Positions 4,166 to 32,706 of a stretch of DNA of 64,000 nt are shown one piece after another. Source of the DNA: Bacteroidota bacterium (lineage in GTDB: Bacteria > Bacteroidota > Bacteroidia > B-17B0 > Aurantibacillaceae). The stretch is from contig JANYEQ010000105.1 in assembly GCA_025363015.1 (NCBI GenBank), positions 1 to 64,000 on the forward strand, written 5' to 3'. The stretch's first letter is position 1. Each line of letters begins with the position of its first letter. The position numbers and the translations under genes were made by a program. Below the pieces are notes generated by a model. It saw nothing but the letters and a program-made list of their open reading frames with translations. It was not told the origin of the DNA and searched no databases.

Positions 4166-5006
4166 CGTTGCCTTACCAAAAAATATTAGCTAAAATTAGC
4201 AAACCTAAATTTTGTCAAACATTCATTTTCTGTTTTTATAATTTAATAGAATATATAATAAAACATTAAGTGCTAACAGGTAAACACTGTGTACTCAAAC
4301 ATAAACATTGCCGTTAAGCAAACAAACATTAAATGCTAACAGGCAGTTATTATTTGCTTACAGGCAAACATTACCGTTAAGCAAGCAATCATTATCTGCT
4401 TACAGGCAGTTATCATTTGCTAACAGGCAAACATTGCCGTTAAGCAAGCAGACATTAAATGCTAACAGGCAGTTATTATTTGCTAACAGGCAAACATTAC
4501 CGTTAAGCAAGCAAACATTAAATGCTAACAGGCAGTTATTATCTGCTAACAGACAAACATTAGCGTTAAGCAAGCAAACATTAAATGCTAACAGGCAGTT
4601 ATCATCTGCTTACAGGCAAACATTACCGTTAAGCAAGCAAACATTAAATGCTAACAGGCAGTTATTATTTGCTAACAGGCAAACATTACCGTTAAGCACA
4701 AAATGTTAAAAAACAGTCCGTTTTTGTTAAAAAGGCAGCGCAAATTGTTAAAACCTGTTAAGGCATGTAATTTTTGTACAATAGTTGCGTTATAGTATTT
4801 AAACACTCCGTAGTACGTTATTAACGTCCGGAAACTATAAAACAAGTGTTGCAATTTGTTTCGCCCAAGTTAAATCGCTTTTACAAATTGCAAATTTTGG
4901 TTTAGGTTTTCGCAGTCGGTCAAATTAAAAAAAAGAGTTGTTTAAATACAACAGCACTAAAGCCGGTTTAGCATTTTTAATGCAAACAATTTAATACTTA
5001 GAACTA
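4166..5006. other. 841-bp stretch without a convincing gene, containing a tandem-repeat array
   Basis: Between the XRE regulator and the FnIII-like gene I see the tandem-repeat array (4262-4698) and an A+T-rich remainder. A plus-strand frame through the array (TTG start at 4308, stop at 4709) is open, but so is a minus-strand frame, because the repeat period is a multiple of three and the unit lacks stops. After the array there are only short inverted repeats, such as GCATT/AATGC around 4971-4984. I see no tRNA or recognisable RNA family. Confidence 0.6.
4262..4698. repeat. Higher-order tandem repeat: 21-bp monomers organised in 63-bp units
   Basis: Six full 63-bp units run from 4304 to 4681, followed by 17 bp of a seventh. 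A degenerate start at 4262 is 42 bp (two monomers) upstream. Each 63-bp unit is three related 21-bp monomers: aacattaccgttaagcaagca, then one with aatgctaacaggca, then one with ttatttgctaacaggca. Units differ by a few substitutions, many of which swap variants between monomer positions (aatgctaac versus tctgcttac). In the plus frame the units read as heptads ending in K/R-Q (PLSKQ, NANRQ, FANRQ). Both synonymous and non-synonymous changes occur, so coding status is unresolved. There are no spacers, so this is not CRISPR. Confidence 0.9.
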
Positions 5007-7806: not shown

Positions 7807-8619
7807 TCACTTTTTGTTTATTAGTTTTTTTACTATCATTTTTAACCAAAGGCTATAGCTAAAGCTATGCAAGTTTTTTGCCTTGTTTAGGTTAATATCA
7901 TCTTTTATAATTTGAGCACTTTTTTCAAAATCAATTAGTGTAAATAAAGAGCCGTTTATTTTGTATTCTGTTAAGGCACCCTTTTGTTTAAATAAGGGGT
8001 AAAGCCCATTTAGGTTGAGGGTAACGCCTTTTTGTTTTTCAAAAAATAAAACCTCTCTCGTTTCATTATCGCCATTAGTATAAATGCAATTAATGTTGTA
8101 GGTTTTAAAGGCTCTATACTTTACGTTTTCTAATTCTTCTACATAATGGGCAAAAGTAAAACTGTGCTGCAAATCAATATCTATTAAAAGCATTTTACCT
8201 TTTATAGTATGCAAAAAAGCAAAAACCGAGTTAGTACCAAAAGTGCTGTTGTTTTTTAAGTGACAGAGTTGGTTAGCATGTTTACCCCACACCATAAAGG
8301 AATGAAAAGGATCGGTAGTACGCACAAAATTATTATTTTTAAACGCAGTTACTGCTAAAGTACCTGTTTGTGGTAGGCTATTTTTTACATCAAAAGTATG
8401 CCCACTTTTTAAGCCATTTACAAATGCTGGAAATAAAAGTGTGCCCTTACTAACTTGTTGTTGTAAGGCGTTAATAAATTGTAAGGCGTTAAACAATTTT
8501 TCGGTACGCATAGTGGTTAACGCTAGTTTAGTCATATCAGAGGCTACTAACAGCGTATCATCTGCTTTAATATTTAATAATGGCGGTATTTGTAAATATG
8601 GCGTGTAGGTACTGCTCAT
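7807..8619 (-). CDS. AAC(3)/YokD-family N-acyltransferase
   Basis: 270 residues, the normal length for the Antibiotic_NAT family, whose members acylate amino groups on sugars. The signature region RTTDPFHSFMVWGKHA (about residues 100-115) corresponds to the family R-x-x-H/D-P-x-x-S-x-x-x-x-G motif, with Asp in place of the common His. The gene lies 3 bp after a VOC gene and downstream of an ACP and an FkbH-type protein. I therefore infer that it moves an ACP- or CoA-bound acyl group onto an amino sugar or other amine of a surface glycan, rather than giving antibiotic resistance. Substrate unknown. Confidence 0.75.
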   Translation of the reverse strand: MSSTYTPYLQIPPLLNIKADDTLLVASDMTKLALTTMRTEKLFNALQFINALQQQVSKGTLLFPAFVNGLKSGHTFDVKNSLPQTGTLAVTAFKNNNFVRTTDPFHSFMVWGKHANQLCHLKNNSTFGTNSVFAFLHTIKGKMLLIDIDLQHSFTFAHYVEELENVKYRAFKTYNINCIYTNGDNETREVLFFEKQKGVTLNLNGLYPLFKQKGALTEYKINGSLFTLIDFEKSAQIIKDDINLNKAKNLHSFSYSLWLKMIVKKLINKK

Positions 8620-8622
8620 TAT

Positions 8623-9027
8623 TTATTTTTGTTCTTCTAATAATTCAATAAGCTCATTGCTAGGGGTTAAAAAAAAAGCAACCTGGCGGTTATTAAAAGC
8701 AATAGCGGGTTTTGGTGCCGATACTAAAATAAATTTATTTTGTTTACAGGTTTCTATATCTTTTTTAAAATTATTGGCTTCAAAACATAAATGATAAAGC
8801 CCCCCGCGTTTGTTTTTTAAAATAGAGGAGATAGGGCTATCGTCTCCTAACGGCTCTACCAGCTCAATACAGGTGCCGTCAATGGTTGTAACAAATGCTA
8901 TTTTTGTTTTTTGTAACTCATCTGTATAAATTTGGCTCATTGTTTGGCAATTAAAAACAGGTTGTAAAACGGTTTTAAAATAGTTTTCAATATTTGTAAC
9001 AGCTATGCCAAGGTGATTAAACTTCAT
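8623..9027 (-). CDS. Glyoxalase/VOC-fold protein, methylmalonyl-CoA epimerase-like
   Basis: 134 residues with two beta-alpha-beta-beta-beta modules. Candidate metal ligands sit where the epimerase/glyoxalase family has them: His5 (FNHLGIAV), Glu in IELVEP, His in GGLYHLCFEA, and Glu near the C-terminus (NELIELLE). The nearest well-known function is methylmalonyl-CoA epimerase. It abuts the fkbH-like gene, so it may epimerise or isomerise the acyl group loaded on the neighbouring ACP. That role is an inference from context only. Confidence 0.75.
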   Translation of the reverse strand: MKFNHLGIAVTNIENYFKTVLQPVFNCQTMSQIYTDELQKTKIAFVTTIDGTCIELVEPLGDDSPISSILKNKRGGLYHLCFEANNFKKDIETCKQNKFILVSAPKPAIAFNNRQVAFFLTPSNELIELLEEQK

Positions 9028-10701
9028 TTAGTGAACGTTTGTAAAATTAATGTATAGAGGTAAAGTATATTCCGTATTTAAATCCCAAAAAAATGTATTA
9101 TTAGTTTGTACTAAACCCGATGTTATAAAAAAACTTAAGCAAGGTTTATTTTTTGGGCTTGGTATATATTCTGCAACTAAGGTGTTGCACTTATTTTGTT
9201 TGGCTAATGTAATGGCAAATGCCAACATGGTTTCTTCGCACTTGCGCCCCATAACACGGCAACTTAAAATAAAATCGGTAATGTAGGCTATGTTATTTTT
9301 AAAGGTTAAGCCTAAAATACCTGTTAAACCTGCATCACCAAACTTATCTGTTAACGAAAAAGCCCATATACTATTTGTGCTTTGTGCTGTAAATTCGGTA
9401 ATTTCTTTTTCGGTTAACCGACGGGTGCTTAAATTTAATTGATTTGTTTTATTAAATAGTTGCGTAACGCGTGCGCTATTTTTTGAGTTTAAAGGCTCTG
9501 CATTAATTTTTATATCAATAGTAGCAAGCCATTCGTCTATGGATTGAAAGGTGAGTTTACTTTGACTACGATTTTTTTCGTCGTTATAATATTGGCTTCG
9601 ATTTGCATCTTCGTTACTTATTATAGATGTGGGAAAACAATTTAAGGCTTTCAAAAACGACGGAAATAACAATTTATCGTTTGGCATTTGGGGAACAAAT
9701 ACTTGTGGGAGGGCTTCTTGCACTCTAGCGCGCTCTGCAGGGTTATCATCTATAAAAACAACGGCATCAAGCCCAATGTTTAATTCAGTAGCTAAGTCGT
9801 ATATGTTTTGTGCTTTATCTTTCCAATTAATTTTGTAGGCTACAAAATTATTTTTTCTCAATATCATTTCGGGGTGTTTTTCTATAGCCGTTAGTGCAAC
9901 TAATTCTTCGTTTTTACTTACTATTGCTAATTGAACGCCTGTGTTTGCAATTGCTAACAGTGTTTTTTGAAAATCAACATAGGCCTCACCCAAAGCATTA
10001 TGCCCCCCTAATATTAAATGTTGCCAACCAGCATCGCCCACAATACCGCCCCATAGGGTGTCATCTAAGTCAAGAACAATTAATTTTTTTGTAAAACCAA
10101 GTAGAGTTTTAACGCAGGCATTTATATCGTTTGCGGCACACTCAAAAACTGTATTATGAAAAGGTATTTTACTTAAATACCAAAGTTTAGGTGAATAGGC
10201 ATTTGCGCCTGCACTATTTATCCAACGTTGTGCATCTAATACATAAAAGCCGTTTGGCTGTGTTAACTTTTGCGCCAACCTATTATTTATTTGTGCAAGT
10301 GTATACGCCACGCCATTAGTAAGATGATAAGCCGATATGCCATAGTATGTATTGGCATCGAGTGTAAACGAAGCTAAGAGCGTAAATTTAACTCTGCTTG
10401 AACAGCTGATAAGTTGCTGAATAAATTCATCCACTTCGTTTAAAATTACATCTAATGTAACGGTTTCATTATTTAATAATTTATTAAACGAATGAATGAC
10501 TTTGTGTGGCTGACAAAAAACAATTGCAAAATCGGGGGTGGATTGCCAACACTCTAAATGAGGATCAAGTAAAACCTGTTGTACTTGGTTAAAGGGCGCT
10601 ATTACAGGGTTGTAACCAATAGTATCGGTTAAATTAGTTAAATACCCCGATAGGTTATTAATTGTAAAATCAGATATTAAAATGGGTTTAAGCGCTTTCA
10701 A
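9028..10701 (-). CDS. FkbH-like HAD-IIIC phosphatase/acyl-loading enzyme
   Basis: 557 residues. The N-terminal 200 or so form the variable segment found in long FkbH proteins. The HAD domain begins with the nucleophile motif DLDDT at 211-215 (LIVLDLDDTLWGG), followed by a second HAD motif (VAIVSKNEE-like) and FIDDNPAERA. The C-terminal ~150 residues resemble a GNAT domain (FGDAGLTGILGL, SCRVMGRKCEETML). In polyketide and glycan pathways, FkbH enzymes take 1,3-bisphosphoglycerate, dephosphorylate it and load a glyceryl group on an ACP. The ACP gene starts 3 bp upstream, in agreement with this. The product here is probably an unusual acyl-ACP for transfer to an amine. Confidence 0.85.
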   Translation of the reverse strand: MKALKPILISDFTINNLSGYLTNLTDTIGYNPVIAPFNQVQQVLLDPHLECWQSTPDFAIVFCQPHKVIHSFNKLLNNETVTLDVILNEVDEFIQQLISCSSRVKFTLLASFTLDANTYYGISAYHLTNGVAYTLAQINNRLAQKLTQPNGFYVLDAQRWINSAGANAYSPKLWYLSKIPFHNTVFECAANDINACVKTLLGFTKKLIVLDLDDTLWGGIVGDAGWQHLILGGHNALGEAYVDFQKTLLAIANTGVQLAIVSKNEELVALTAIEKHPEMILRKNNFVAYKINWKDKAQNIYDLATELNIGLDAVVFIDDNPAERARVQEALPQVFVPQMPNDKLLFPSFLKALNCFPTSIISNEDANRSQYYNDEKNRSQSKLTFQSIDEWLATIDIKINAEPLNSKNSARVTQLFNKTNQLNLSTRRLTEKEITEFTAQSTNSIWAFSLTDKFGDAGLTGILGLTFKNNIAYITDFILSCRVMGRKCEETMLAFAITLAKQNKCNTLVAEYIPSPKNKPCLSFFITSGLVQTNNTFFWDLNTEYTLPLYINFTNVH

Positions 10702-10704
10702 TGT

Positions 10705-11013
10705 TTAAACTTTAGTTTCTAAATAATTAATTAAAGATTCTAAATTTATAAGCAGGTTTTCTTTGTTTTCAATAATTTCAGATATGTCTAACATAAAATC
10801 GGCATTACACTGTGCTTTTATATTTTCTTCAACAAGTACTAATAAATTAACTAAACCCAGGCTATCTAATTTGCCCTCGGGTGTAAAGCCTGTTCGAGAA
10901 AAAAGAATGGTATTTGTATTTTTTTGTAATTGTAAATCGCTTGCTTGAAAGGCATTGTAACTTTCAATAGCTAAAAAAACGGAGGCTTTTATTTTATCTT
11001 TTGTTGCAGTCAT
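10705..11013 (-). CDS. Acyl carrier protein
   Basis: About 102 residues with a four-helix ACP pattern and the phosphopantetheine site LDSLGLVNL; the Ser is residue 51 counted from this start. I chose the ATG at 11013 (MTATKDKIK). An upstream ATG at 11028 would add five residues and overlap the preceding gene's stop. It is the probable carrier for the acyl unit made by the FkbH-like enzyme that follows after 3 bp. It is distinct from the fatty-acid ACP, judging by divergent sequence and location. Confidence 0.85.
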   Translation of the reverse strand: MTATKDKIKASVFLAIESYNAFQASDLQLQKNTNTILFSRTGFTPEGKLDSLGLVNLLVLVEENIKAQCNADFMLDISEIIENKENLLINLESLINYLETKV

Positions 11014-11021
11014 TTTTTTGT

Positions 11022-11591
11022 TTACCAATTATCTTTTCCAGCATCTGTGCTTGGTTTTAACATATTTATTTTTATTTCAGATACTATGGAGTTGGCACAT
11101 TTTATGGCTTCGCCTTTTAATTTTTTCCAAATTAAATCGCCCATTATCATACTTCCACATTCAGCAATTGTGTTTTCAAAATTACCACCATTTGATTTGC
11201 CACTTTTGCTAATGTGTTTAATTTGTGCAATAGTGTATTTGTAGCGTTTATCTTTACACTCAATAATTACTTTCATTGTAATTTTACCCGTGTAATCGCA
11301 ATCAGGATTTAATTCTTTAGGCTTTACGGTAAAGGTAGCAATGCACTCGGCTTTACTACCCGTAGTAATTCCATTTGTTTTGCCATACTTTGCACTTTCA
11401 ATTTTTACCCAATTGACAGCGCGATTTAATAATTCGCTGGCAGATACTGAGTCGGGTGGAGAAATAACTTCGGTTATTTTGTATTCCTCTTTCTTTTTTG
11501 GTGCATCGTCTTCAATATTTGTTTGTGCAATATGGTAATTAGATTTAAAAATAATTACTAAAAAAAATACTATTTTAAATAATTTTACCAT
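11022..11591 (-). CDS. Exported DUF4468-like protein (copy 1)
   Basis: 189 residues. A signal peptide (MVKLFKIVFFLVIIF...HIAQ) leads to a single domain resembling the DUF4468 family, with alternating strands and the pair GKITMKVIIECKDKRYKYTI and IAECGSM. It is clearly paralogous to the gene at 11763-12440: the shared elements are GKITM(K/D)VIIE, a KH(I/K) turn, ECGSM and a C-terminal D-A-(G/N)-KD-(N/E)-W. Probably periplasmic or lipid-surface; function unknown. It ends 8 bp before the ACP start, so it may be co-transcribed with the acyl cassette by position alone. Confidence 0.7.
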   Translation of the reverse strand: MVKLFKIVFFLVIIFKSNYHIAQTNIEDDAPKKKEEYKITEVISPPDSVSASELLNRAVNWVKIESAKYGKTNGITTGSKAECIATFTVKPKELNPDCDYTGKITMKVIIECKDKRYKYTIAQIKHISKSGKSNGGNFENTIAECGSMIMGDLIWKKLKGEAIKCANSIVSEIKINMLKPSTDAGKDNW

Positions 11592-11762
11592 GTATTTTTA
11601 TTTATTTACTCTGCATTTATGCTCTCTATATTAGATACCACTTAAAGTACGTTCGCTCAGTGTAACATTCTTACATTTTACAATGCCTAGTGTAACATAT
11701 TAGGAAGCACTGAGGGCACTGTGAATGATGAAAGAGATGTATTGAAAACTATAAAAATAAAA

Positions 11763-12440
11763 TTACCACTCGTCTTTATTAGCATCCACCTCTTGTTTCA
11801 TTACTGCTTTTAAATCGTCAACTACAATTTTGGTACAGGCATAACTTTCGGCTCTAACTAGTTTCCACGTTCTATCGTTTAATTTCATTGAACCACACTC
11901 GGGCACTTCGGCATAAATATCTCCACCGCTCATACCTTGCGCATTCGATTTGTGTTTTATATTTTTTATGGTGTAGCGGTATTTACCTTCTTTTGCCTCA
12001 ATAATTACATCCATGGTAATTTTACCATCTACATCATTTTCGGGGTTTAGTATTTTTTGTTTAAAGTTAAAGGTAACGTTGCAGGTTACTGATTTACCGG
12101 AGTTAGTACCACCAGCTTTTATAAACTTTTTAGTTTTTAGGGTATACCAAGCTTGTGCACGTTTTAAAATTTCGGCTTGTGGGGCTGGCATTAGAGGCGG
12201 AAGGGTATCTACCACTTCTTCAACCACAACGGGCTCAACAACTACTGGCTTTTTTTTACCTTTTTTGCCTTCTACCACTGGGGCTATAGTTGGGGTAGGA
12301 GCTACTACTTTTGGTGCGTATTTGGCTCGTTCAACTTCAACCGTCACTATATCGCGAATTATTTTTTTCTCATCTTCTTTATCTTGCGAAAAAGTTAGAA
12401 AAGGTAAAATAAGTAAAGCGCCAAGTATTAATTTTTTCAT
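11763..12440 (-). CDS. Exported DUF4468-like protein (copy 2) with Pro/Val/Lys linker
   Basis: 225 residues from the Met at 12440: signal peptide MKKLILGALLILPFLTFSQ, a low-complexity linker rich in P, V, E and K (about residues 40-85), then the same DUF4468-like domain as the downstream paralogue. A longer reading frame begins at TTG 12464, but a perfect -7 element (12462-12469) covers that codon, so 12440 is the right start. The two copies are 171 bp apart and share roughly the last 120 residues. Function unknown; duplication is evident. Confidence 0.75.
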   Translation of the reverse strand: MKKLILGALLILPFLTFSQDKEDEKKIIRDIVTVEVERAKYAPKVVAPTPTIAPVVEGKKGKKKPVVVEPVVVEEVVDTLPPLMPAPQAEILKRAQAWYTLKTKKFIKAGGTNSGKSVTCNVTFNFKQKILNPENDVDGKITMDVIIEAKEGKYRYTIKNIKHKSNAQGMSGGDIYAEVPECGSMKLNDRTWKLVRAESYACTKIVVDDLKAVMKQEVDANKDEW

Positions 12441-12461
12441 TTTCAGTTTTTTATTTAAATA

Positions 12462-12469
12462 CAAAAATA
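12462..12469 (-). promoter_or_regulatory. Bacteroidota -7 element for the DUF4468 copy 2 gene
   Basis: On the minus strand this reads TATTTTTG, an exact TAnnTTTG match, about 20 bp upstream of the ATG at 12440. It overlaps the alternative TTG start and so decides the start codon. Confidence 0.65.
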
Positions 12470-12476
12470 AACTTTT

Positions 12477-14885
12477 TTAGTACATTTTAGTAAATTGATT
12501 TGGGTTGACTTCGCACATTAAATTGTAAATAGCATCAAACACATCATCGGCATTTGGTTTACTAAAATAATCGCCATCGCTACCGTAAGCTGGGCGATGC
12601 TCTTTACTTGCAATGGTAAGAGGTGCCGAGTCTAACCGCTGATAGCCTTTTTGTTCTTCAATTATTTTTTGTAAAATGTAAGCGCTTGCACCACCTGGTA
12701 CATCCTCGTCTAAGACCACCAAACGATTTGTTTTTTGTAAAGATTTAACGCAATCGTGGTGTATATCAAAAGGCAATAAGGTTTGTAAATCAATTAACTC
12801 CACACTAATATTAAATTTTTGTAATAATTTAATTGCCTCTTGTGCTATACGAACAGAGCTGCCATAGGTTACTAAAGTAACATCAGTACCTTGTTGTAAA
12901 ACTTCAACTATACCTAATGCCACTTTATAGTCGCCAAAATTACTGGGTTGTTTTTCTTTTAAACGATAGGCATTTAAAGGTTCTATAATTAATGCGGGCT
13001 CATCGGCTTGTAATAAGGTGTTGTAAAACCCGGAAGCAATGGTCATATTTCGTGGCACACAAATATTGATACCTCGGCAAGCACTAACAATCATACCCAT
13101 TGGCGAACCGCTGTGCCAAACGCCCTCTAACCTATGCCCGCGGGTGCGAATAATAACAGGGGCTTTTTGCATGCCTTTTGTACGCCATTGTAGGGTGGCA
13201 AGGTCATCGCTCATTAATTGAAGAGCATATAATAAATAATCTAAATATTGAATTTCGGCAACTGGGCGTAAGCCACGCATGGCTAAACCAATGGCTTGCC
13301 CCATAATAGTGGCTTCACGAATACCTGTATCAAAAACTCTATGCTCGCCATATTTTAATTGTAAGCCTTCTAAACCTTGATTAACGCCACCAATTTTACC
13401 AGAATCTTCTCCAAAAATCATTACTTCGGGATATTTGTTTAAGATCGCATCAAAATTATCGCGTAAAATTTCGCGGCCATCTACCTGTTTATCTTCGGTA
13501 TACACTACAGCATTAGGCAAAATATTTTTTACTTGTTGGTTGGATTGTGAATGTAAATGCGACCCATAGCGCGCATTATTTTCCAAACGAGCATGTTGCA
13601 GCCACGTTATTAAGCTTTGGTAAGCACTGGTATTATTGCCCACAAAATTTCTTAACACGGTTTTAACGGCGGTATGAATATCTTTACGAATGGGTTCTTT
13701 AATGGCTTTTAACTCCTTAACAATGGCTAAAACTTCATCGCCACCTATTTCTTCAAACAAAGCTATAACTTGGGTTAGCTCGTTTTTAATAGGAGTTAAA
13801 TAATCCGTCCAGGCTTTGTTTTTTGCTTGTTTTACAATTTCTTTAGCCTCTTCTTCAATCGCATTTAATTCCTCTTCACTAGCTAAAGCGTTGGCAATAA
13901 TCCATTCACGCATTTGCTTTATACAATCAAAATCTAATTCCCATTGCAGGCGTTCTTTACTTTTATAACGCTCGTGGCTACCGCTGGTACTATGCCCTTG
14001 TGGTTGTGTTACCTCTTCAACATGTACTAAAACGGGTACATGCTCTTCTCTACACACTTTTATGGCTTTTTCATAAGTTTCGCATAGGTGGGCATAATCC
14101 CAGCCTTTGGTTTTAAATATTTCGTAGCCCTTGCCACCGTTTTCGCGTTGAAAACCCTTTAATACCTCGCTAATACTTTCTTTAGTGGTTTGGTATTTTT
14201 TTGGAACTGAGATGCCATGTCCATCATCCCAAACACTTACTAGCATGGGTACTTGCAACACACCGGCGGCGTTTATGGTTTCCCAAAACAGGCCTTCGCT
14301 GGTGCTGGCATCGCCAATGGTACCAAACGCCACTTCGTTTCCTTGGTTGCTATAATTAGTAAATGGGGCTACGTGTAACTCTTTATTTATTTTATAAAAA
14401 TGCGACGCATACGCTAAACCCAATAAACGTGGCATTTGCGATGCAGTGGGAGAAACATCGCTACTCGAATTTTTTTGATTTACTAAGTCTTTAAACGAGC
14501 CATCGGCATTTAAACTATGTGTGCCAAAGTGGCCACCCATTTGGCGTCCGCCACTCATGGGTTCAAAATCAATATCAGTATGGCCATATAAACCCGCAAA
14601 CCATTGTTGTAGGTTTAAGGCTTCAATAGCAAACATAAAGGTTTGGTCGCGGTAATAGCCGCTTCTAAAATCGCCATTTTTAAATACTTTGCTCATGGCA
14701 ATTTGTGCCAATTCTTTACCATCGCCAAAAATACCAAACTTGGCCTTGCCAGTTAATACTTCTTTACGCCCCAATAAACTAGCTTGGCGGCTTTGGTTAA
14801 CCAATTTAAAATCGTGAAGTACAATTTTTTTAAAATCATCAAAACTTAAGTTGCCTTTTGTAGTGGCGGTATCTTGCTTTCCCAT
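12477..14885 (-). CDS. Fused alpha-beta E1 of a 2-oxoacid dehydrogenase complex
   Basis: 802 residues joining both E1 subunits in one chain, the form typical of Bacteroidota branched-chain/pyruvate dehydrogenases. It decarboxylates a 2-oxoacid on thiamine diphosphate and passes the acyl group to E2 lipoyl domains. The alpha half (about 30-400) contains the TPP segment GDASTSEGLFWETINAAG and the phospho-loop region HSTSGSHERYKS. A helical linker follows, then the transketolase-like beta half (about 450-790) with FGEDSGKIGGV, RPVAEIQYLDYL and GHRLEGVWHSGSP. The substrate (branched-chain 2-oxoacids or pyruvate) cannot be fixed from sequence alone. It is a single-gene transcript with its own -7 element. 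Confidence 0.9.
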   Translation of the reverse strand: MGKQDTATTKGNLSFDDFKKIVLHDFKLVNQSRQASLLGRKEVLTGKAKFGIFGDGKELAQIAMSKVFKNGDFRSGYYRDQTFMFAIEALNLQQWFAGLYGHTDIDFEPMSGGRQMGGHFGTHSLNADGSFKDLVNQKNSSSDVSPTASQMPRLLGLAYASHFYKINKELHVAPFTNYSNQGNEVAFGTIGDASTSEGLFWETINAAGVLQVPMLVSVWDDGHGISVPKKYQTTKESISEVLKGFQRENGGKGYEIFKTKGWDYAHLCETYEKAIKVCREEHVPVLVHVEEVTQPQGHSTSGSHERYKSKERLQWELDFDCIKQMREWIIANALASEEELNAIEEEAKEIVKQAKNKAWTDYLTPIKNELTQVIALFEEIGGDEVLAIVKELKAIKEPIRKDIHTAVKTVLRNFVGNNTSAYQSLITWLQHARLENNARYGSHLHSQSNQQVKNILPNAVVYTEDKQVDGREILRDNFDAILNKYPEVMIFGEDSGKIGGVNQGLEGLQLKYGEHRVFDTGIREATIMGQAIGLAMRGLRPVAEIQYLDYLLYALQLMSDDLATLQWRTKGMQKAPVIIRTRGHRLEGVWHSGSPMGMIVSACRGINICVPRNMTIASGFYNTLLQADEPALIIEPLNAYRLKEKQPSNFGDYKVALGIVEVLQQGTDVTLVTYGSSVRIAQEAIKLLQKFNISVELIDLQTLLPFDIHHDCVKSLQKTNRLVVLDEDVPGGASAYILQKIIEEQKGYQRLDSAPLTIASKEHRPAYGSDGDYFSKPNADDVFDAIYNLMCEVNPNQFTKMY

Positions 14886-17517: not shown

Positions 17518-17599
17518 TTACAAACACAAAATTAATATAAATTACAAAGTGTAAGCAGTAAAAAAATGAATAGAAATGTGTATATTTATAACCTATATA

Positions 17600-18427
17600 A
17601 TGAAAACAGTAATAACAAGTTCTGATAAATCGTTTTTAAATCTTAGTGAACTGAGAAGATACTCAGGCTTATTTAAATACTTATCATTACGCGATGTTTC
17701 GGTACGTTATAAGCAAACAAAAATTGGTTTTGCTTGGAGTATAATTAGGCCACTTATAAACATTTTAATCTTTGGCTGTTTATCTATTTTGGTTGATAAA
17801 ACGCAATTGCCCACTCAAAAATTTTTAATGGTTTCGGCGGGTGTAATTTTTTGGCAATTACTATCGAGTGCCATTAACGAAGTAAGTAATTCGCTAACGG
17901 TAAATTCAAATATTTTAACCAAAGTATATTTACCAAAATTAATTTTACCGCTATCCAGCTTGCTCGTTTGTATTATAGATTTTTTAATAGCTTTTGTAAT
18001 TTTTATACTCTTGTTTATTTTTTTAAAAGGGCTACCAACTTGGCAATTAATTTTTTTACCCATAGTTATTTTATATGGTTTGGTTTTTTGTTTTAGCTTA
18101 GGTTTATTATTTGCAACGGCATCGGTTAAGTTTAGAGATGTAAAATTTATTTTACCATTTATTATTCAAATTTTATTTTATGCATCGCCTGTATTTTTAA
18201 GCACAGAGTTTATTTTAAAACTTAATATGCCTGAGTTTGCTAAAATTATTTATCAATTAAACCCATTTGTGTATATGCTTAATGCCTTTAAATATTGTAT
18301 TTATGGTAGTTTTGATAATTTTAATATATTATATTTTGGTATTTCAATAGGTATAACGTTTTTAACCTTAATCGTATCGTTAAAATATTTTTTAAACTTC
18401 GAAAAATCGTTTGCTGATTATATATAA
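17600..18427 (+). CDS. wzm: ABC-2 type polysaccharide exporter, permease subunit
   Basis: 275 residues with six membrane helices and the cytoplasmic lead-in typical of Wzm/TagG (FKYLSLRDVSVRYKQTKIGFAWSIIRPL). It forms the channel that moves an undecaprenyl-linked glycan across the inner membrane. I chose ATG 17600; an earlier ATG (17576) would only add a short hydrophobic tag, and the near-consensus -7 element TATATTTA sits just before 17600. It is the first gene of the polysaccharide island, and the ATPase starts 3 bp after its stop. Confidence 0.88.
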   Translation: MKTVITSSDKSFLNLSELRRYSGLFKYLSLRDVSVRYKQTKIGFAWSIIRPLINILIFGCLSILVDKTQLPTQKFLMVSAGVIFWQLLSSAINEVSNSLTVNSNILTKVYLPKLILPLSSLLVCIIDFLIAFVIFILLFIFLKGLPTWQLIFLPIVILYGLVFCFSLGLLFATASVKFRDVKFILPFIIQILFYASPVFLSTEFILKLNMPEFAKIIYQLNPFVYMLNAFKYCIYGSFDNFNILYFGISIGITFLTLIVSLKYFLNFEKSFADYI

Positions 18428-18430
18428 CCA

Positions 18431-19669
18431 ATGAGCCAAATTGCCATAAAAGTTGAGAACGTTAGCAAAAAATATAATCTTTTGCATAAACAAAAAGATC
18501 AAGCCGATTCGTTAATTGGTTCGTTTGGTGGTAGTATAAAAAATATGTTTAGCTCTAAAAAAACAAGCACTTTAAACGAAGAATTTTGGGCTTTACAAGA
18601 TATTAATTTCGAAATAAATAAAGGAGATAGAGTTGGTATAATTGGGAGAAATGGCGCTGGCAAATCCACCTTGTTAAAAATACTAAGCCGTATAGTAAAA
18701 CCTTCAACGGGCAGCATTGAGTACTATGGAAGAATGGCTAGCTTATTAGAAGTAGGAACTGGTTTTCATGGCGATTTAAGCGGACGCGAAAATATTTATT
18801 TAAATGGCTCCATTTTAGGGATGAGCAAACACGAAATAGATGCAAAATTTGATGAAATAGTTGCCTTTAGCGAAGTAGAAAAGTTTTTGGATACGCCCGT
18901 AAAACGTTATAGTAGTGGCATGTATGTACGCTTGGCATTTGCTGTTGCGGCACATTTAGAAACCGAAATTTTAATAGTAGATGAAGTATTAGCAGTAGGC
19001 GATGCCGCGTTTCAAAAAAAATGTATTGGTAAAATGAATGAGATAAGCAACAAAGAAGGCAAAACAATTTTATTTGTAAGCCATAGTATGCAGTCTGTTC
19101 AAAAAATTTGTAACACCGGTATTTTTTTACAAAAAGGAAAAATAATAGAACAAAATACAATAGATAAAATAGTAAATAGGTATTTACAGTCGGGCGATAC
19201 AGGGCAGGCTAGTTTTGATATACCATTACCAAATGAACCCATTAATGGGTACATTACAAAAGTAATTATTGAAAATAAACAAGGGCAAATATTACACGAA
19301 ATACCCGTAGGATCGGATTGGAGAGTTAGAATACTTATTAACGTAACACAACCAATACAACATTTTATTGTAGGCTTAGGAATTGTTTCTTCTTTTGATA
19401 CGCCAATAAGAACCTCTTGGAGTCTTCCAGAAAATATATCTGTGGGCAATTACGAAATAATTTTTGATAATGATGATGTGATGTTAACCTCTGGTTTATA
19501 TAAACTTGTAATTGGTTTATCTAGTCATGTTCGAACATTTCAATACATAGATGATTTAATTACAATTATTATTTCTGATGCTGGAGATGCCGCAAATAAT
19601 AACCGAATAATTAATACCGATAGCGGTTTAATTTTAAATCCCATGAACGTAACATTAAATAAATTATAA
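18431..19669 (+). CDS. wzt: ABC exporter ATPase with C-terminal cargo-recognition domain
   Basis: 412 residues. The nucleotide-binding domain has Walker A GRNGAGKST at 72-80, signature YSSGMYVRLAF and Walker B ILIVDEVLAVGD, with the switch His in FVSHS. Residues from about 250 to 405 form the extra beta-sandwich (Wzt_C). In O9a-type systems this domain binds the non-reducing-end modification of the finished chain and gates export. Its presence implies that the island's polymer carries a terminal cap that must be recognised before transport. Confidence 0.9.
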   Translation: MSQIAIKVENVSKKYNLLHKQKDQADSLIGSFGGSIKNMFSSKKTSTLNEEFWALQDINFEINKGDRVGIIGRNGAGKSTLLKILSRIVKPSTGSIEYYGRMASLLEVGTGFHGDLSGRENIYLNGSILGMSKHEIDAKFDEIVAFSEVEKFLDTPVKRYSSGMYVRLAFAVAAHLETEILIVDEVLAVGDAAFQKKCIGKMNEISNKEGKTILFVSHSMQSVQKICNTGIFLQKGKIIEQNTIDKIVNRYLQSGDTGQASFDIPLPNEPINGYITKVIIENKQGQILHEIPVGSDWRVRILINVTQPIQHFIVGLGIVSSFDTPIRTSWSLPENISVGNYEIIFDNDDVMLTSGLYKLVIGLSSHVRTFQYIDDLITIIISDAGDAANNNRIINTDSGLILNPMNVTLNKL

Positions 19670-19673
19670 GACT

Positions 19674-20369
19674 ATGTTTTTTTCAAAAAATAAAAAAAAT
19701 ACAATCGCACAGTTTGAAAAAGTAAGCTACTCGCAATGTGGTGAAGATACAATTATTGATTTTGCTTTTGGTCAACTAAAAATTAATAACCCCTCCTATT
19801 TAGATTTAGGCGCCCATCACCCCTATTATTTAAGTAATACTGCTTATTTTTATAAAAAAGGTTGCCGAGGTGTTAGCGTAGAAGCCGACCCAAATTTATT
19901 TGAAGCCTTTAAAAAAGAACGCCCCGAAGAAATTACTTTAAATGTAGGAGTTGGAGAGACTAGTGGCGCTAGTGCCAATTTTTATATTATGAGTGCCACT
20001 ACTTTAAATACTTTTTCAAAATCTGAAGCAGAAAGGTATGCTAGTTACGGCGATAAAAAAATTGTAAACATTATTAAATTGCCTATTCTTTCAATTAATG
20101 ATATTATTGCTAATCATTTTAAAACACAATGTCCAAATTTTATTTCGTTAGATATTGAAGGAATGGATTTAATTATTATTAAATCGCTTGATTTTGTAAA
20201 GTATAGACCCGAAATTTTATGTATTGAAACAATAAGTTATACTGAAAATAAAACGGAAGAAAAATTAAAAGATATTATTAGTTATGTTGAAAGTAAAGGT
20301 TATTTTTTATACGCCGATACGTATATAAATTCAATTTTTGTAGATACAGAAAAATGGAAAAATAGATAA
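19674..20369 (+). CDS. FkbM-family SAM-dependent methyltransferase
   Basis: 231 residues with the FkbM signature: SQCGEDTIIDFAFG, then YLDLGAHHPYYLSNT (the SAM loop), GVSVEADPNLFEAF, and FISLDIEGMDLIII. FkbM proteins O-methylate sugars, among other substrates. It lies directly after the Wzt gene whose C-terminal domain should recognise a capped chain end, so a terminal methyl cap is plausible but not shown. Confidence 0.85.
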   Translation: MFFSKNKKNTIAQFEKVSYSQCGEDTIIDFAFGQLKINNPSYLDLGAHHPYYLSNTAYFYKKGCRGVSVEADPNLFEAFKKERPEEITLNVGVGETSGASANFYIMSATTLNTFSKSEAERYASYGDKKIVNIIKLPILSINDIIANHFKTQCPNFISLDIEGMDLIIIKSLDFVKYRPEILCIETISYTENKTEEKLKDIISYVESKGYFLYADTYINSIFVDTEKWKNR

Positions 20370-20378
20370 AAAACTCAT

Positions 20379-21233
20379 TTGCAAAATAAATATCAAATAT
20401 CAGTAGTCATTCCAACGTATAATCGTGCCAATGATTTAATGGCAGCAATACAAAGCGTTTTAAATCAAACTTATCCAATTACCGAAATACTCATTTGTGA
20501 CGACGGATCTACAGATAATTCAAAAGAGTTGGTTTCAAATTTAAACAACCCAAAAGTAAAATGGCTGGAATGTGGGGAAAACGGCGGCCCTGCTATCCCT
20601 CGAAATACAGGTGTAAAGCAAAGTATTGGAAATTGGATTGCCTTTTTAGATAATGATGATGAATGGCTTAATACAAAAATAGAAAAACAAGTCGACTTAT
20701 TGCAACATCATGATGCAAAAGCGTGTTGTTGTAATGCCTCGCGAATCAAATTTGGCGAAGATAAAGGCCCTTATTTAGATTATAAAAAAACAGAAATAAC
20801 AACACTTGATTTAATGTTGCAAAACTCTATTATTTGCAGTTCTGCACTTTTAAATAAAGAGTTGATTTTAGAAACAGCCTTATTTCCTGAAGATAAAAAA
20901 TTTATAGCCATTGAAGACTATTGTTTGTGGCTTAGATTAAGTAAAAAAACTAAATTTTTATTTATTAACGAAAACTTAGTAAAGTACAGTGATAATGCCG
21001 AAATATCTATTCGATCTACAAATACAAAAGATGTTTGGGATACTTATTCACTTATTTTTAATGATTTTAAAGAGTGGTTAACTCAAAAAAAAATTAGTTT
21101 GAGTAGCGACGAAAAAAGAGAATTTAAAAAGTTAACAAAAAAAATAAGGCAAAAAGGAATTGAAACACCAACTGATAATTTTTTAAGAAAATTAAGTGAT
21201 AAACTAAAAATTAAAACTATATATAATAGTTAA
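20379..21233 (+). CDS. GT2-family glycosyltransferase
   Basis: 284 residues with a GT-A fold: ISVVIPTYNRANDL at the N-terminus, ICDDGSTDNS for nucleotide binding, and FLDNDDEW as the DxD region. The start is TTG at 20379, because the conserved IPTYNR strand begins within ten residues and no ATG lies in between. It probably adds one sugar to the exported glycan; donor and acceptor cannot be told. The next gene starts 1 bp after its stop. Confidence 0.85.
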   Translation: MQNKYQISVVIPTYNRANDLMAAIQSVLNQTYPITEILICDDGSTDNSKELVSNLNNPKVKWLECGENGGPAIPRNTGVKQSIGNWIAFLDNDDEWLNTKIEKQVDLLQHHDAKACCCNASRIKFGEDKGPYLDYKKTEITTLDLMLQNSIICSSALLNKELILETALFPEDKKFIAIEDYCLWLRLSKKTKFLFINENLVKYSDNAEISIRSTNTKDVWDTYSLIFNDFKEWLTQKKISLSSDEKREFKKLTKKIRQKGIETPTDNFLRKLSDKLKIKTIYNS

Positions 21234-21234
21234 G

Positions 21235-22233
21235 ATGAAAACAGGACCATTTATTAGTGTTATTCTTCCTGTTTATAATGCTCAACCTTTTTTGAAGGAA
21301 GCCATTGAAAGCATTTTAAATCAATCGTATTCAAATTTTGAGTTTATAATCATTAACGATGGCTCAACAGATGATTCTGAAAAAACAATTTTACAATTTA
21401 ACGATAGTAGAATTAAATATTTTTATCAGCAAAATAAAGGATTGGGCGCAACATTAAATATTGGTTTAAGTTTATGCACCGGAAAATATATTGCAAGACA
21501 GGATCAAGATGATATTTCTTACCCAGATAGATTTAAAAAACAAATTGATTTTTTAGAAAAAAATCCAACAATGGTATTGCTTGGAACACGTGCCAAAATT
21601 TTAACAGAAAACTCTACAGAAATTAAATACCATAAACATGCTACCCATTCTGCTGATTTAAAATTTGATTTATTATTTGATAATCCATTTGTTCACAGTT
21701 CGGTAATATTTAAAAAATCAATAATTGATGAAGTAGGCATTTATACTATTGATAGAAATTTATATGAAGATTACGATTTATGGTCGCGTATGGCACTGAA
21801 TGGCGAAGTAGCAAATTTACCAGATATTTTACTAGACTACAGGCATCACGCAAAAGGTTTATCCACTAATAGTTCTAACTTTAAAGACGATGCTTTATTT
21901 GAACAAGGATTAAAAAATACAAAAAATTTAATAAGAGACTTATCTACCCCAATTATTGATTTACAGGCTCTATTTCATTGGAAAAAAGAAAAATATTCGG
22001 GTACAACAATCACCCAATTATTTGAAGCACTAGATGTAATTACTAATAAATTAATTAGTATGTATCCAAACGAAAAAGATAGATTAACTAAAAGAAAAAA
22101 ACAATATCAAAAAATAATTCGTTCTCGTTTAAATACAATGGCACGTCGTAACCAACCATCTTTTTTTAAAATGTTATATTTAAAAATTGAAAACAAATTA
22201 TTAAAATTACATCCTCACGTTATAAATAATTAA
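21235..22233 (+). CDS. GT2-family glycosyltransferase
   Basis: 332 residues. GT-A core: ISVILPVYNAQPFLKEAIES, IINDGSTDDS, then RQDQDDISYPDRF as the metal-binding acidic region and YEDYDLWSRM further on. The ~100-residue C-terminal tail is basic and helical and may sit on the membrane surface. It is similar in layout to the gene at 24267. One-base spacing on both sides indicates a tight operon. Confidence 0.87.
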   Translation: MKTGPFISVILPVYNAQPFLKEAIESILNQSYSNFEFIIINDGSTDDSEKTILQFNDSRIKYFYQQNKGLGATLNIGLSLCTGKYIARQDQDDISYPDRFKKQIDFLEKNPTMVLLGTRAKILTENSTEIKYHKHATHSADLKFDLLFDNPFVHSSVIFKKSIIDEVGIYTIDRNLYEDYDLWSRMALNGEVANLPDILLDYRHHAKGLSTNSSNFKDDALFEQGLKNTKNLIRDLSTPIIDLQALFHWKKEKYSGTTITQLFEALDVITNKLISMYPNEKDRLTKRKKQYQKIIRSRLNTMARRNQPSFFKMLYLKIENKLLKLHPHVINN

Positions 22234-22234
22234 A

Positions 22235-23404
22235 ATGAAAATTTTTCATTGTGTAGAATCATATTATCCCGCCGTTGGCGGTATGCAAGAAGTTGTGAAA
22301 CAACTTAGCGAACGTTTAGTAAAATTAGGGCATGATCTTACTGTATTAACACGTTACAATGCTGATAGAGCGTTTAATGAATTTAATGGCGTTAAAATTA
22401 AAACGTTTAATATTGTAGGCAATCCTTGCATTATTGAAAATGAAAACGATAAAGAATACGTTGATTTTTTATTAAATACACCTTGTGATATTATTACATT
22501 TTTTGCAGCGCAACAATGGGCTACAAATTTAGCACTGCCTATTCTTAAAAATATTAAAGCAAAAAAAGTATCCGTTCCCACAGGCTATTCAGGACTTTAT
22601 TGGCCAGAATTTAAATCGTACTTTGAAGATATGAAAACGTGGATTCATGATTATGACATGAATGTATATTTAAGTAACGATTATAGGGATATAAACTTTG
22701 CTAAAGAAAATAAAGTAAAACATACTATTCTTATACCTAATGGTGCAGCCGAAGATGAATTTTTACCAGAAACAACTATAAATGTGAGGCAAGAATTAAA
22801 TATTCCCGAGCATCATTTTTTAATATTATTAGTTGGTTCATATACAGGCTGGAAAGGTCATAGAGAAGCCATTGAATTATTTTTAAAATCAAACATTAAA
22901 AATGCAACCCTATTAATGATAGGCAACAACTACGAATATTTTAAACGACAATACATTAAACATCCTAAACTTGCGTTATTGAGCTTTATAAATAAATTAA
23001 CAGGTAGTAAAAAAATAATATTTAATTTCTTACCACGTAACTTAACTGTTGCTTGTTACAAGCAAGCCGATTTGTTTTTGTTTCCTTCAAATATTGAGTG
23101 CTCGCCAATTGTTTTATTTGAGTGCGCAGCAGCACAACTCCCTTTTTTATCAAGCGATGCAGGAAACTCCATAGAAATTGCTAAATGGACGAAAGGTGGT
23201 GAAATTATTCCAACTATTAAAGATGAAAATGGTTTTAGTCACGTAATAATTAACGAAGGTGTTAAAATGCTAAATGAATTATATGTTAATAAAGCCAAAC
23301 GAAAAAAAATGGCAGAAGATTCATTTGCCCTTTGGAAAGAAAAATATAGCTGGGAAATAATTACTAAAGAGTATGAAAAATTATATTTTAATTTATTGAA
23401 ATAA
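22235..23404 (+). CDS. GT4-family glycosyltransferase
   Basis: 389 residues with a GT-B fold. The N-terminal glycine loop is YYPAVGGMQEVVKQL. The C-terminal donor domain carries LVGSYTGWKGH and FPSNIECSPIVLFECAAA, the E-x7-E type region that binds the nucleotide sugar. GT4 enzymes use retaining chemistry. Its last base is shared with the start of the fucosyltransferase-like gene. Confidence 0.87.
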   Translation: MKIFHCVESYYPAVGGMQEVVKQLSERLVKLGHDLTVLTRYNADRAFNEFNGVKIKTFNIVGNPCIIENENDKEYVDFLLNTPCDIITFFAAQQWATNLALPILKNIKAKKVSVPTGYSGLYWPEFKSYFEDMKTWIHDYDMNVYLSNDYRDINFAKENKVKHTILIPNGAAEDEFLPETTINVRQELNIPEHHFLILLVGSYTGWKGHREAIELFLKSNIKNATLLMIGNNYEYFKRQYIKHPKLALLSFINKLTGSKKIIFNFLPRNLTVACYKQADLFLFPSNIECSPIVLFECAAAQLPFLSSDAGNSIEIAKWTKGGEIIPTIKDENGFSHVIINEGVKMLNELYVNKAKRKKMAEDSFALWKEKYSWEIITKEYEKLYFNLLK

Positions 23405-24282
23405 TGATTTTAGTGAAATTAATGGGCGGTTTAGGAAACCAAATGTTTCAATATGCAGCAGCAAAAGCTTTAGCGTGCAAGCACAACGTGGATATTAAAG
23501 TGGACTTATCATTTTTAAATGCCGACCCAAAAGGTAATTATACTGCACGTAAATACGAACTCGATATTTTTAATTCAGTAATTAAAATTGCCAGCGAAGA
23601 AGATCTTTTAAAATTTAATAATAAAATAAATAATAAAATTGCGCGCAGTTTACAGCGAAATTTCCCATCATTATTTACCTATTTGCTAGCCGCCGAAAGT
23701 GGCAGTAATTATAGTTTGGCATTTCAATCGTATCCTAAAAACACCTATTTAAATGGGTTTTGGCAAAGTGAAAAATATTTTGAGCATTACAAAGCACAAA
23801 TAAAAACTGATTACGAATTTAAAAAAATAATTCCAAATGCATTACAAGTTATTTTAAATCAAATTCAAAATTCAAATAGTATTTCAATTCATGTAAGAAG
23901 AGGAGATTATGTAGCTTTAAAATCTGCAAATGATTTTCATGGAATATGTAATATAGACTATTATAAAACCGCAATTAGTTTAATGGCACAAAAAAATAAA
24001 AATATTGAATTATTTATTTTTTCAGACGATATAGATTGGTGTAAACAAAATTTTGAGTTTAACTTTCCAATGCATTTTGTGCAGCATAAATTAGAATCTT
24101 ATTGGGATATGTTTTTAATGAGTAATTGTAAACACAACATTATTGCCAATAGTAGTTTTAGTTGGTGGGCAGCTTGGTTAAATAAAAATATAGAAAAAAC
24201 AATTATTGCGCCTAAAAATTGGTTTGCCAATACTGCAATTAATACGAATGATTTAATTCCTTTGCAATGGATAAAAATTTAA
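23404..24282 (+). CDS. GT11-family alpha-1,2-fucosyltransferase-like protein
   Basis: 292 residues. It opens with the GT11 hallmark LMGGLGNQMFQYAAAKAL and contains motif I HVRRGDY in mid-protein, followed by FIFSDDIDWC and NSSFSWWAAWL, all usual in GDP-fucose-dependent alpha-1,2-fucosyltransferases. It implies a fucosylated glycan, though no GDP-fucose synthesis genes are in this window. The 3' end overlaps the next gene by 16 bp. Confidence 0.88.
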   Translation: MILVKLMGGLGNQMFQYAAAKALACKHNVDIKVDLSFLNADPKGNYTARKYELDIFNSVIKIASEEDLLKFNNKINNKIARSLQRNFPSLFTYLLAAESGSNYSLAFQSYPKNTYLNGFWQSEKYFEHYKAQIKTDYEFKKIIPNALQVILNQIQNSNSISIHVRRGDYVALKSANDFHGICNIDYYKTAISLMAQKNKNIELFIFSDDIDWCKQNFEFNFPMHFVQHKLESYWDMFLMSNCKHNIIANSSFSWWAAWLNKNIEKTIIAPKNWFANTAINTNDLIPLQWIKI

Positions 24283-25295
24283 ATCAAGCACAATTAGTTT
24301 CAGTTGTAATGGCCGTTTACAATGGCGAAACTTATTTACGTGAAGCAATTGATAGTATTTTAAATCAAACATTTACCAATTTTGAATGTATTATTATTAA
24401 TGACGGTTCTACAGATAAAAGCCTTTCAATTATAAAATCATACTCAGATAATAGAATAATTTTAATTAATAATGAAGGAAATAAAGGATTAATTTACTCA
24501 TTAAACAAAGGAATTGACACCGCAAAAGGTGAATATATTGCTCGTATGGATGCTGACGATATTTGTTTACCCAATAGATTTGAAGAACAATTAAAAACGT
24601 TTCAGGCTCAACCAAATACAATAGTTGTAAGTTCGGATTATTATTTATTAAACAACACTAAACTCTCTCTCATAAAAACTAATTATACTAATTATGCATT
24701 AAAAGCCATTTTATTATTTACTCCTTGCTTTTGTCATCCCACTGTAATGATAAAAAATTTATTTAAAGAAAAAAATATTTTTTATAATCAAGAATTTATT
24801 CATGCTGAAGATTATAAATTATGGACTGATTTAGCAGTTTGTGGCAACTTTTATAATGTACCCATTCCTTTACTCAAATATCGGTCGCATCCAACTCAAA
24901 TAAGTACCTTAAATAAAAATAGACAGTTACAAATAAGTTCCACTATTCGTAAAAATTATTTAAACAACTTAGAGTTTAATTTATCGGCCCAACAGTTTAA
25001 AACATTAAATTTTATTGGTAATAACGAATTTATAAATCAAAAAAGTATATTAGTTGAAATTGAAAATTGCCTGAGTGAATTAATAAATCAAAATAGTAAT
25101 CATAAAAAAATTGATACAGCACAATTTAATAAAGTAATTTTTAAATTTTGGTTAGATAGCTGTGGCTATAGTAATTTAGGATTAATGGCCTTTAAACTAT
25201 TTTTTAAATCAAGCTTAGCATCTTATGATAATTTATCTCTAACTCAAAAAAGTAAATTTTTAGTAAAATGTTTAATTAGAAAATTTAAACACTAA
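24267..25295 (+). CDS. GT2-family glycosyltransferase
   Basis: 342 residues. The GT-A core has VSVVMAVYNGETYLREAIDS, IINDGSTDKS and RMDADDICLPNRFEEQ. The start lies inside the end of the GT11 gene (16-bp overlap, different frame). Its 3' end overlaps the inverted GT4 gene by 11 bp, so the plus-strand operon is interrupted here. Confidence 0.86.
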   Translation: MDKNLNQAQLVSVVMAVYNGETYLREAIDSILNQTFTNFECIIINDGSTDKSLSIIKSYSDNRIILINNEGNKGLIYSLNKGIDTAKGEYIARMDADDICLPNRFEEQLKTFQAQPNTIVVSSDYYLLNNTKLSLIKTNYTNYALKAILLFTPCFCHPTVMIKNLFKEKNIFYNQEFIHAEDYKLWTDLAVCGNFYNVPIPLLKYRSHPTQISTLNKNRQLQISSTIRKNYLNNLEFNLSAQQFKTLNFIGNNEFINQKSILVEIENCLSELINQNSNHKKIDTAQFNKVIFKFWLDSCGYSNLGLMAFKLFFKSSLASYDNLSLTQKSKFLVKCLIRKFKH

Positions 25296-26424: not shown

Positions 26425-26476
26425 TTTTAAACATTAAATATACAAATAATATTACCTAAAAATTAGCGTATTTGGT

Positions 26477-26484
26477 TATATTTG
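26477..26484 (+). promoter_or_regulatory. -7 promoter element restarting the polysaccharide operon
   Basis: TATATTTG, an exact match to TAnnTTTG, lies 7 bp before the ATG at 26492. A TTTG at 26471-26474 is too close to be the -33 box. It would re-initiate transcription after the inverted GT4 gene; the untranslated leader would be very short. Confidence 0.5.
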
Positions 26485-26491
26485 CTATTTT

Positions 26492-29498: not shown

Positions 29499-29522
29499 AC
29501 ACTATATTTTATTACAAAAAAA

Positions 29523-31399: not shown

Positions 31400-31400
31400 T

Positions 31401-32213: not shown

Positions 32214-32217
32214 TAAA

Positions 32218-32694: not shown

Positions 32695-32706
32695 AATTTA
32701 AAGCTT

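Follow-up and report, generated by a model that had tools for sequence, protein, structure and literature searches.

A compact ACP-FkbH-VOC-AAC(3) gene cassette from Bacteroidota predicted to supply a glyceryl-type acyl group for an amino sugar

We analyzed a stretch of 64,000 nucleotides (hereafter the window; GenBank assembly GCA_025363015.1, contig JANYEQ010000105.1, positions 1 to 64,000) that belongs to contig C60 of a 3.33-Mb Bacteroidota genome in 143 contigs (G000), and we focused on a four-gene cassette on its minus strand. In the direction of transcription, the genes encode a putative acyl carrier protein (ACP; 10705–11013, ATG start, 102 amino acids), an FkbH-type HAD-IIIC enzyme (9028–10701, TTG start, 557 amino acids), a VOC (glyoxalase/epimerase-like) metalloprotein (8623–9027, 134 amino acids), and an acyltransferase of the AAC(3) fold (Antibiotic_NAT; 7807–8619, 270 amino acids). 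An earlier note on this DNA had described four open reading frames (ORFs) standing 0–3 bp apart from 11013 down to 7807; all were found at these positions, and their families matched. The successive gaps are 3, 0, and 3 bp. All four frames are intact, their catalytic residues are kept, and no sharp boundary in base composition was seen around the cassette.

The FkbH-type protein matches the FkbH domain model TIGR01686 at 276 bits, compared with a cutoff of 147, and also matches PF21211 (FkbH_N); the PDB entry 3slr matches with E = 4e-49. It retains D211, D213, K296, D318, D319, and S480-C481-R482, all of which are invariant among 43 homologs, and from its sequence we predict a glyceryl transferase/phosphatase that would load the ACP. 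No close relative was found in 36 other genomes of the host genus, whose FkbH proteins are ~30% identical to it and lie mostly in other cassettes with MaoC, SDR, and MBOAT genes. A cassette of the form FkbH-ACP-MaoC-SDR-MBOAT is common in the host genus and class (L046–L051, L115, and L119), an arrangement that suggests the use of a glyceryl-derived acyl-ACP for O-acylation. Among 395 genomes searched across the class, one ortholog was found, with 59% identity, in a genome from a different family (G475). One scan of genome contigs recovered only four FkbH relatives, none of them adjoining an AAC(3) or VOC gene, while viral contigs gave no match and phages gave two distant ones.

The small protein encoded at 10705–11013 is the weakest of the four assignments and is best described as a predicted, divergent stand-alone ACP. 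It carries the phosphopantetheine motif DSLGLVNL, with D50-S51-L52 present, and L49-D50-S51 is invariant across a ten-member family alignment. Neither this protein nor its relatives match any Pfam carrier-protein model, PF00550 included; since PF00550 is only a detection aid, the missing match lowers, without excluding, its identity as an ACP. Searching the PDB with the family profile gave 13 matches, nearly all of them acyl or D-alanyl carrier proteins, with E values from 0.002 (best) to 0.6. When compared profile to profile (hhalign) with the ordinary ACPs that accompany FkbH at other loci, the family scored a probability of 43% and E = 0.00025. An AlphaFold model built from two sequences, with a predicted local distance difference test (pLDDT) score of 73, was too poor to inform the assignment, as was the fold search.

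The VOC protein scores 59 bits against Glyoxalase_4 (PF13669; gathering score 27). All four FkbH-linked VOC proteins share H5, E55, H79, and E128 without variation; with the metal ligands of glyoxalase I as the model, these residues would be the metal ligands of an intact glyoxalase-type site. The nearest PDB chains are annotated as glyoxalase I (2qh0 and 3hdp), followed by methylmalonyl-CoA epimerase. The protein scores below the GlxI equivalog cutoff, and an assignment as methylmalonyl-CoA epimerase was rejected (TIGR03081, 58.5 bits compared with a cutoff of 114.95). VOC genes also adjoin FkbH-ACP pairs in G196 (L071, with a hexapeptide acyltransferase) and in G664 (L118). They thus stand beside FkbH-ACP in three separate FkbH clades with different acyltransferases, a pairing that needs three events, and they were not seen beside AAC(3) genes that have no FkbH. 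This distribution indicates that VOC tracks the FkbH-ACP pair and not the acyltransferase. Glyoxalase I forms a 2-hydroxyacyl thioester via a metal-bound enediolate, chemistry that makes inversion of C2 of a glyceryl-ACP by the VOC protein chemically reasonable. Our hypothesis is that the VOC protein is a candidate acyl-ACP epimerase that sets the stereochemistry of the acyl group.

The fourth protein matches Antibiotic_NAT (PF02522) at 82.8 bits, compared with a gathering score of 25, and scores 34.6 bits against the NCBIfam equivalog for AAC(3) resistance enzymes, well below its cutoff of 270. A profile of its family aligns with the structures of AAC(3), YokD, and FrbF, and among 11 aligned homologs R100, P104, and H158 are invariant and E161 is nearly so. 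These features make 7807–8619 a candidate amino-sugar N-acyltransferase. The window protein (residues 245–270) and its G475 counterpart share a basic, amphipathic-looking C-terminal tail (SLWLKMIVKKLINKK and SLFIKTLIKKLIR, respectively). This tail is limited to the two cassette proteins, being absent from the other nine aligned homologs, and it is possible that it contacts a membrane or the ACP. A search for AAC(3) in 395 Bacteroidota-level genomes gave 13 distant relatives, of which none lies beside FkbH, three lie beside DUF4910, and one lies beside an ACP gene. In Tritonibacter, Agrobacterium, and several genomes from the same phylum as the window, relatives adjoin DUF4910 genes in pseudaminic/nonulosonate loci.

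The complete arrangement recurs in G475 (L104, 9325–12499), where ACP, FkbH, VOC, and AAC(3) genes follow one another in identical order, overlapping or a few bases apart, with a TTG start for FkbH. The encoded proteins are 51% (ACP, 9325–9654), ~59% (FkbH), 62% (VOC), and 54% (AAC(3), 11696–12499) identical to those of the window. This agreement in gene content, order, tight spacing, and the TTG start of FkbH indicates that the cassette is not due to chance. In G475, it sits inside a polysaccharide-type operon. Upstream lies a gene for an alpha/alpha-toroid protein related to C5-epimerase. Downstream of the AAC(3) gene are a DUF7033 protein, which is related to the VimE deacetylase of UDP-2,3-diacetamido sugars and scores below its cutoff, and a FemAB-like protein, which closes the operon and is homologous (154 bits) to the product of window positions 30497–31399. 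The operon is flanked by recG-like and hemE-like genes, assigned by reading, and not by comEC. No second full cassette was found among six genomes of G475's family, and no toroid gene was found in the host genome in a search run without a positive control.

A second line of evidence comes from plasmids. The AAC(3) query matched 11 records among 72,556 plasmids, and FkbH was in the same or an adjacent gene in 5 of the 11. In three proteobacterial plasmids, from Rahnella, Maritalea, and Sinorhizobium RAC02 (L123, L125, and L126), AAC(3) and FkbH are fused in one ORF of 819–858 amino acids; the Erwinia plasmid copies resemble the Rahnella cluster with interrupted frames. A naive estimate of the chance of at least four AAC(3)-FkbH coincidences on plasmids is ~2e-13, a value that ignores the non-random gene content of plasmids. 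NeuB and DUF4910 homologs accompany two of the fusions, whose loci are of the nonulosonate type. A quick FkbH tree of 43 proteins, which has long branches, places the window and G475 proteins in one clade (SH-like approximate likelihood ratio test (SH-aLRT) support of 100) and the fused proteins in a clade of their own (SH-aLRT of 99). Because the fusions fall in a different FkbH clade from the window protein, the AAC(3)-FkbH pairing must have arisen at least two times. The expectation that these families occur together elsewhere is therefore borne out, both by the full order in G475 and by the plasmid fusions.

The Rahnella and Erwinia clusters (L123, 6627–16270, and L124) combine the AAC(3)-FkbH fusion with a nucleotidyltransferase-aminotransferase fusion (possibly PntC-like), a CDP-alcohol phosphatidyltransferase, a weakly phosphonatase-like HAD protein, MaoC, ATP-grasp, and MFS proteins, and an SDR bearing a C-terminal ACP-like domain. 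Their product is perhaps a phosphonate or a phospholipid head group rather than a glycan. Other members of the window FkbH clade are partnered by a GNAT protein (L069 and L105) or by MaoC/SDR (L068 and L106), and in L013 an unassigned gene neighbors FkbH inside a NeuB/NeuC/NeuA locus. The ACP-FkbH-GNAT cassette of L069 (7700–10607, in G111) stands among housekeeping genes, with mutS-like and gatB-like neighbors, outside any visible glycan locus. Window-clade ACP-FkbH pairs without an adjoining acyltransferase occur in L107–L110 (G754, G597, G490, and G691); one of these has the toroid gene also present in G475, and the FkbH match in G691 runs across in-frame stops.

The gene identities, active-site residues, conserved order, fusions, and genomic contexts described above lead us to favor, as the probable function of the cassette, the synthesis of a glyceryl-type acyl thioester whose acyl group is passed to an amine on an activated amino sugar destined for a cell-surface glycan. 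From these observations we infer a donor, an acyl group, an ACP-bound intermediate, a VOC step with its stereochemistry, and an acceptor. FkbH would draw a three-carbon unit from 1,3-bisphosphoglycerate and, with removal of phosphate, charge the phosphopantetheine arm of the ACP with it, yielding D-glyceryl-S-ACP. This 2-hydroxyacyl thioester would be the substrate of the VOC protein, which would work through an enediolate and, in the simplest case, invert C2. In the last step, the AAC(3)-fold enzyme would hand the acyl group over from the ACP to an amine, and the recipient is probably a nucleotide-linked 4-amino or 2,3-diamino sugar. The free amine could be provided by an aminotransferase or a VimE-like deacetylase, and the VimE-like gene directly after the G475 AAC(3) gene would then parallel DUF4910 in other loci. 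The scheme of the earlier note, loading on the ACP followed by N-acylation, thus gains partial support from the recurrent order, the fusions, and the AAC(3) relatives beside DUF4910.

A possible destination of the modified sugar lies in the same window. An ABC-exported polysaccharide gene cluster on the plus strand (17576–33363) encodes, according to Pfam matches, a permease, a Wzt-like ATPase, an FkbM methyltransferase, several glycosyltransferases, and FemAB-like and deacetylase-like proteins, and its polysaccharide may receive the sugar, proximity being the basis for this connection. Elsewhere, G000 encodes amino-sugar aminotransferases, including a PseC/PglE-like one beside a sugar-phosphate transferase, and two VimE-like deacetylases outside the cassette, one of which adjoins a UDP-GlcNAc 2-epimerase-like gene. 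A nonulosonic acid acceptor was considered and is not supported: the sole NeuB-like sequence in G000 is a partial PF03102 match of 32 bits next to tryptophan biosynthesis genes. In the absence of a convincing NeuB, the acceptor is probably not a nonulosonic acid.

On its downstream side, the cassette is separated by 2 bp from comEC (PF03772; 5780–7804, minus strand, ATG start at 7804), and a 13-bp inverted repeat directly follows the comEC stop. The earlier note had remarked that comEC follows the cassette, but this neighbor is not conserved. Of 24 comEC loci compared within the genus, none has the cassette as its upstream neighbor; in most of them, that position is occupied by an ORF of ~410–430 amino acids, and these loci usually have a gene of 330 amino acids and an aminotransferase downstream. 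The different flanks in G475 agree with this picture. The cassette was probably inserted before comEC in the host lineage and may be co-transcribed with it here, with comEC functionally incidental; a link to DNA uptake was rejected, as the junction is not conserved. Upstream of the ACP gene, two neighboring DUF4468-like proteins are encoded at 11022–12464, and the nearer gene ends 8 bp before the ACP start and so possibly shares a transcript with it. The window also contains, at 4308–4709, an ORF built of a repeated unit like SKQTLNANRQLLFANRQTLPL, which is a low-complexity or tandem repeat array.

Our assignment of the cassette to glyceryl-type N-acylation of an amino sugar must be weighed against observations that do not favor it. 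The exact four-gene order is known from two genomes only, and several FkbH systems lack both VOC and AAC(3). The cassette lies ~6.5 kb outside the glycan cluster and on the opposite strand. For the ACP, the predicted identity depends on a motif together with a profile similarity that is weak. The donor for the AAC(3)-like enzyme might be acyl-CoA rather than acyl-ACP.

Among the alternatives, the one that survives best, although we consider it unlikely, is that a different short hydroxyacyl-ACP, for example, of the lactyl or hydroxymalonyl type, is made, tailored by the VOC protein, and transferred by the AAC(3)-like enzyme. Some FkbH enzymes have been reported to deliver lactyl units, and the MaoC and SDR genes at many FkbH-ACP loci indicate that FkbH products are often processed further. 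However, genes for a dehydrogenase, a dehydratase, or a methyltransferase are missing from the cassettes of both the window and G475, and thus nothing there could reduce or oxidize a glyceryl group. We regard as improbable a transfer of the acyl group to a hydroxyl, a lipid, or a peptide instead of a sugar amine. Such a transfer would be in keeping with a basic AAC(3) tail that might bind a membrane, with the FemAB-like gene that follows in G475, and with the MBOAT O-acyltransferases that accompany many other FkbH-ACP pairs, but the loci in which AAC(3) homologs were found are of the amino-sugar and nonulosonate kind, and the characterized AAC(3)-fold enzymes act on amines.

If the cassette were a decaying collection of acquired genes brought together by chance, its sporadic distribution, with the full set in two genomes only, would be accounted for. 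We strongly disfavor this explanation: the frames and catalytic residues are intact, and the spacing and TTG start have been kept between the window and G475 at 50–60% identity. Drug resistance, with the AAC(3)-like protein as an aminoglycoside acetyltransferase and its neighbors unrelated, fits the fold and Pfam family but is scarcely credible given the score far below the resistance equivalog cutoff, the tight operon, the recurrence with FkbH, and the fusions.

If the cassette attaches a glyceryl-type group to an amino sugar, it bears on a wider question, as bacterial surface sugars carry N-glyceroyl and similar acyl groups, while most of the enzymes for making and attaching the glyceryl unit are unassigned. 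The self-contained four-gene module, together with the natural AAC(3)-FkbH fusions, represents a testable enzyme set. This function would likewise account for a group of genes annotated as "aminoglycoside acetyltransferase" that are unrelated to drug resistance, and it would assign a chemistry to the VOC proteins that are currently labeled glyoxalase where they occur in glycan loci. More tentatively, and with less confidence than we place in the overall function, the VOC protein could be a dedicated D- to L-glyceryl-S-ACP epimerase using glyoxalase-type enediolate chemistry, and AAC(3)-fold enzymes could include a class of ACP-dependent amino-sugar N-acyltransferases. A glycan pathway of this kind would set the stereochemistry of an acyl group while the group is on a carrier protein.

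Finally, we compared the cassette with known systems. Known Antibiotic_NAT members are understood to work with acyl-CoA. The window enzyme resembles FrbF, YokD, and AAC(3) enzymes in its fold, invariant residues, and predicted amine acylation but differs in that its partner in the cassette is an ACP. The Neisserial glyceramido-trideoxyhexose, a glyceroyl amide on a 4-amino sugar, is reportedly made with PglB2, which has an ATP-grasp domain rather than FkbH-ACP. In tetronate and methoxymalonyl-ACP pathways, FkbH uses 1,3-bisphosphoglycerate to charge a stand-alone ACP with a glyceryl unit (PMC7489565). The cassette shares the FkbH-ACP pair with these pathways but lacks a polyketide synthase, a FabH-like enzyme, dehydrogenases, and an O-methyltransferase; the two dehydrogenases and the O-methyltransferase of the methoxymalonyl-ACP pathway are likewise absent from the G475 cassette. 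No literature on FkbH in a lipopolysaccharide or O-antigen context was found.

The Campylobacter jejuni protein Cj1295, which is aminopeptidase-like and of the DUF4910 type, is required for 5-N-(2,3-di-O-methylglyceroyl) pseudaminic acid and has been proposed to strip the C5 acetyl so that glyceroyl can replace it; its gene adjoins Cj1296/7, an N-acetyltransferase gene (PMC3068675). Campylobacter is among the genera listed with a DUF4910 gene in a paper on the structure of this family (PMC4000134). The C. jejuni system and the proposed product share a glyceryl-derived acid in amide linkage to an amino sugar, and the N-acetyltransferase gene there lies beside a DUF4910-type gene, as do relatives of the window AAC(3) gene. 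In contrast, the window has no DUF4910 or nonulosonate genes, and G000 has no convincing NeuB; the C. jejuni system needs O-methylation, and its acyl donor is unproved. We presume that the C. jejuni flagellin locus also holds ACP and FkbH-like genes.

The earlier impression that this combination of genes is undescribed proved too strong, as the Clostridium acetobutylicum glycan locus CA_C2186-2199 has been tabulated with a glyoxylase, an aminosugar N-acetyltransferase, an ACP, and an N-acetyltransferase+HAD protein (PMC4000134, Table 2). The likeness to the cassette lies in the presence of all four in one locus. The C. acetobutylicum locus differs in that not all four genes adjoin one another, and nonulosonate, ATP-grasp, and DUF4910 genes are interspersed with them; its N-acetyltransferase was compared by its published description. 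The PDB chains nearest to the window VOC protein (2qh0 and 3hdp) presumably derive from C. acetobutylicum and may represent CA_C2192. We read the cassette as a variation on a known kind of sugar decoration, in which the acyl supply of an FkbH-ACP pair would be joined to amino-sugar N-acylation in a compact form that includes a VOC protein.

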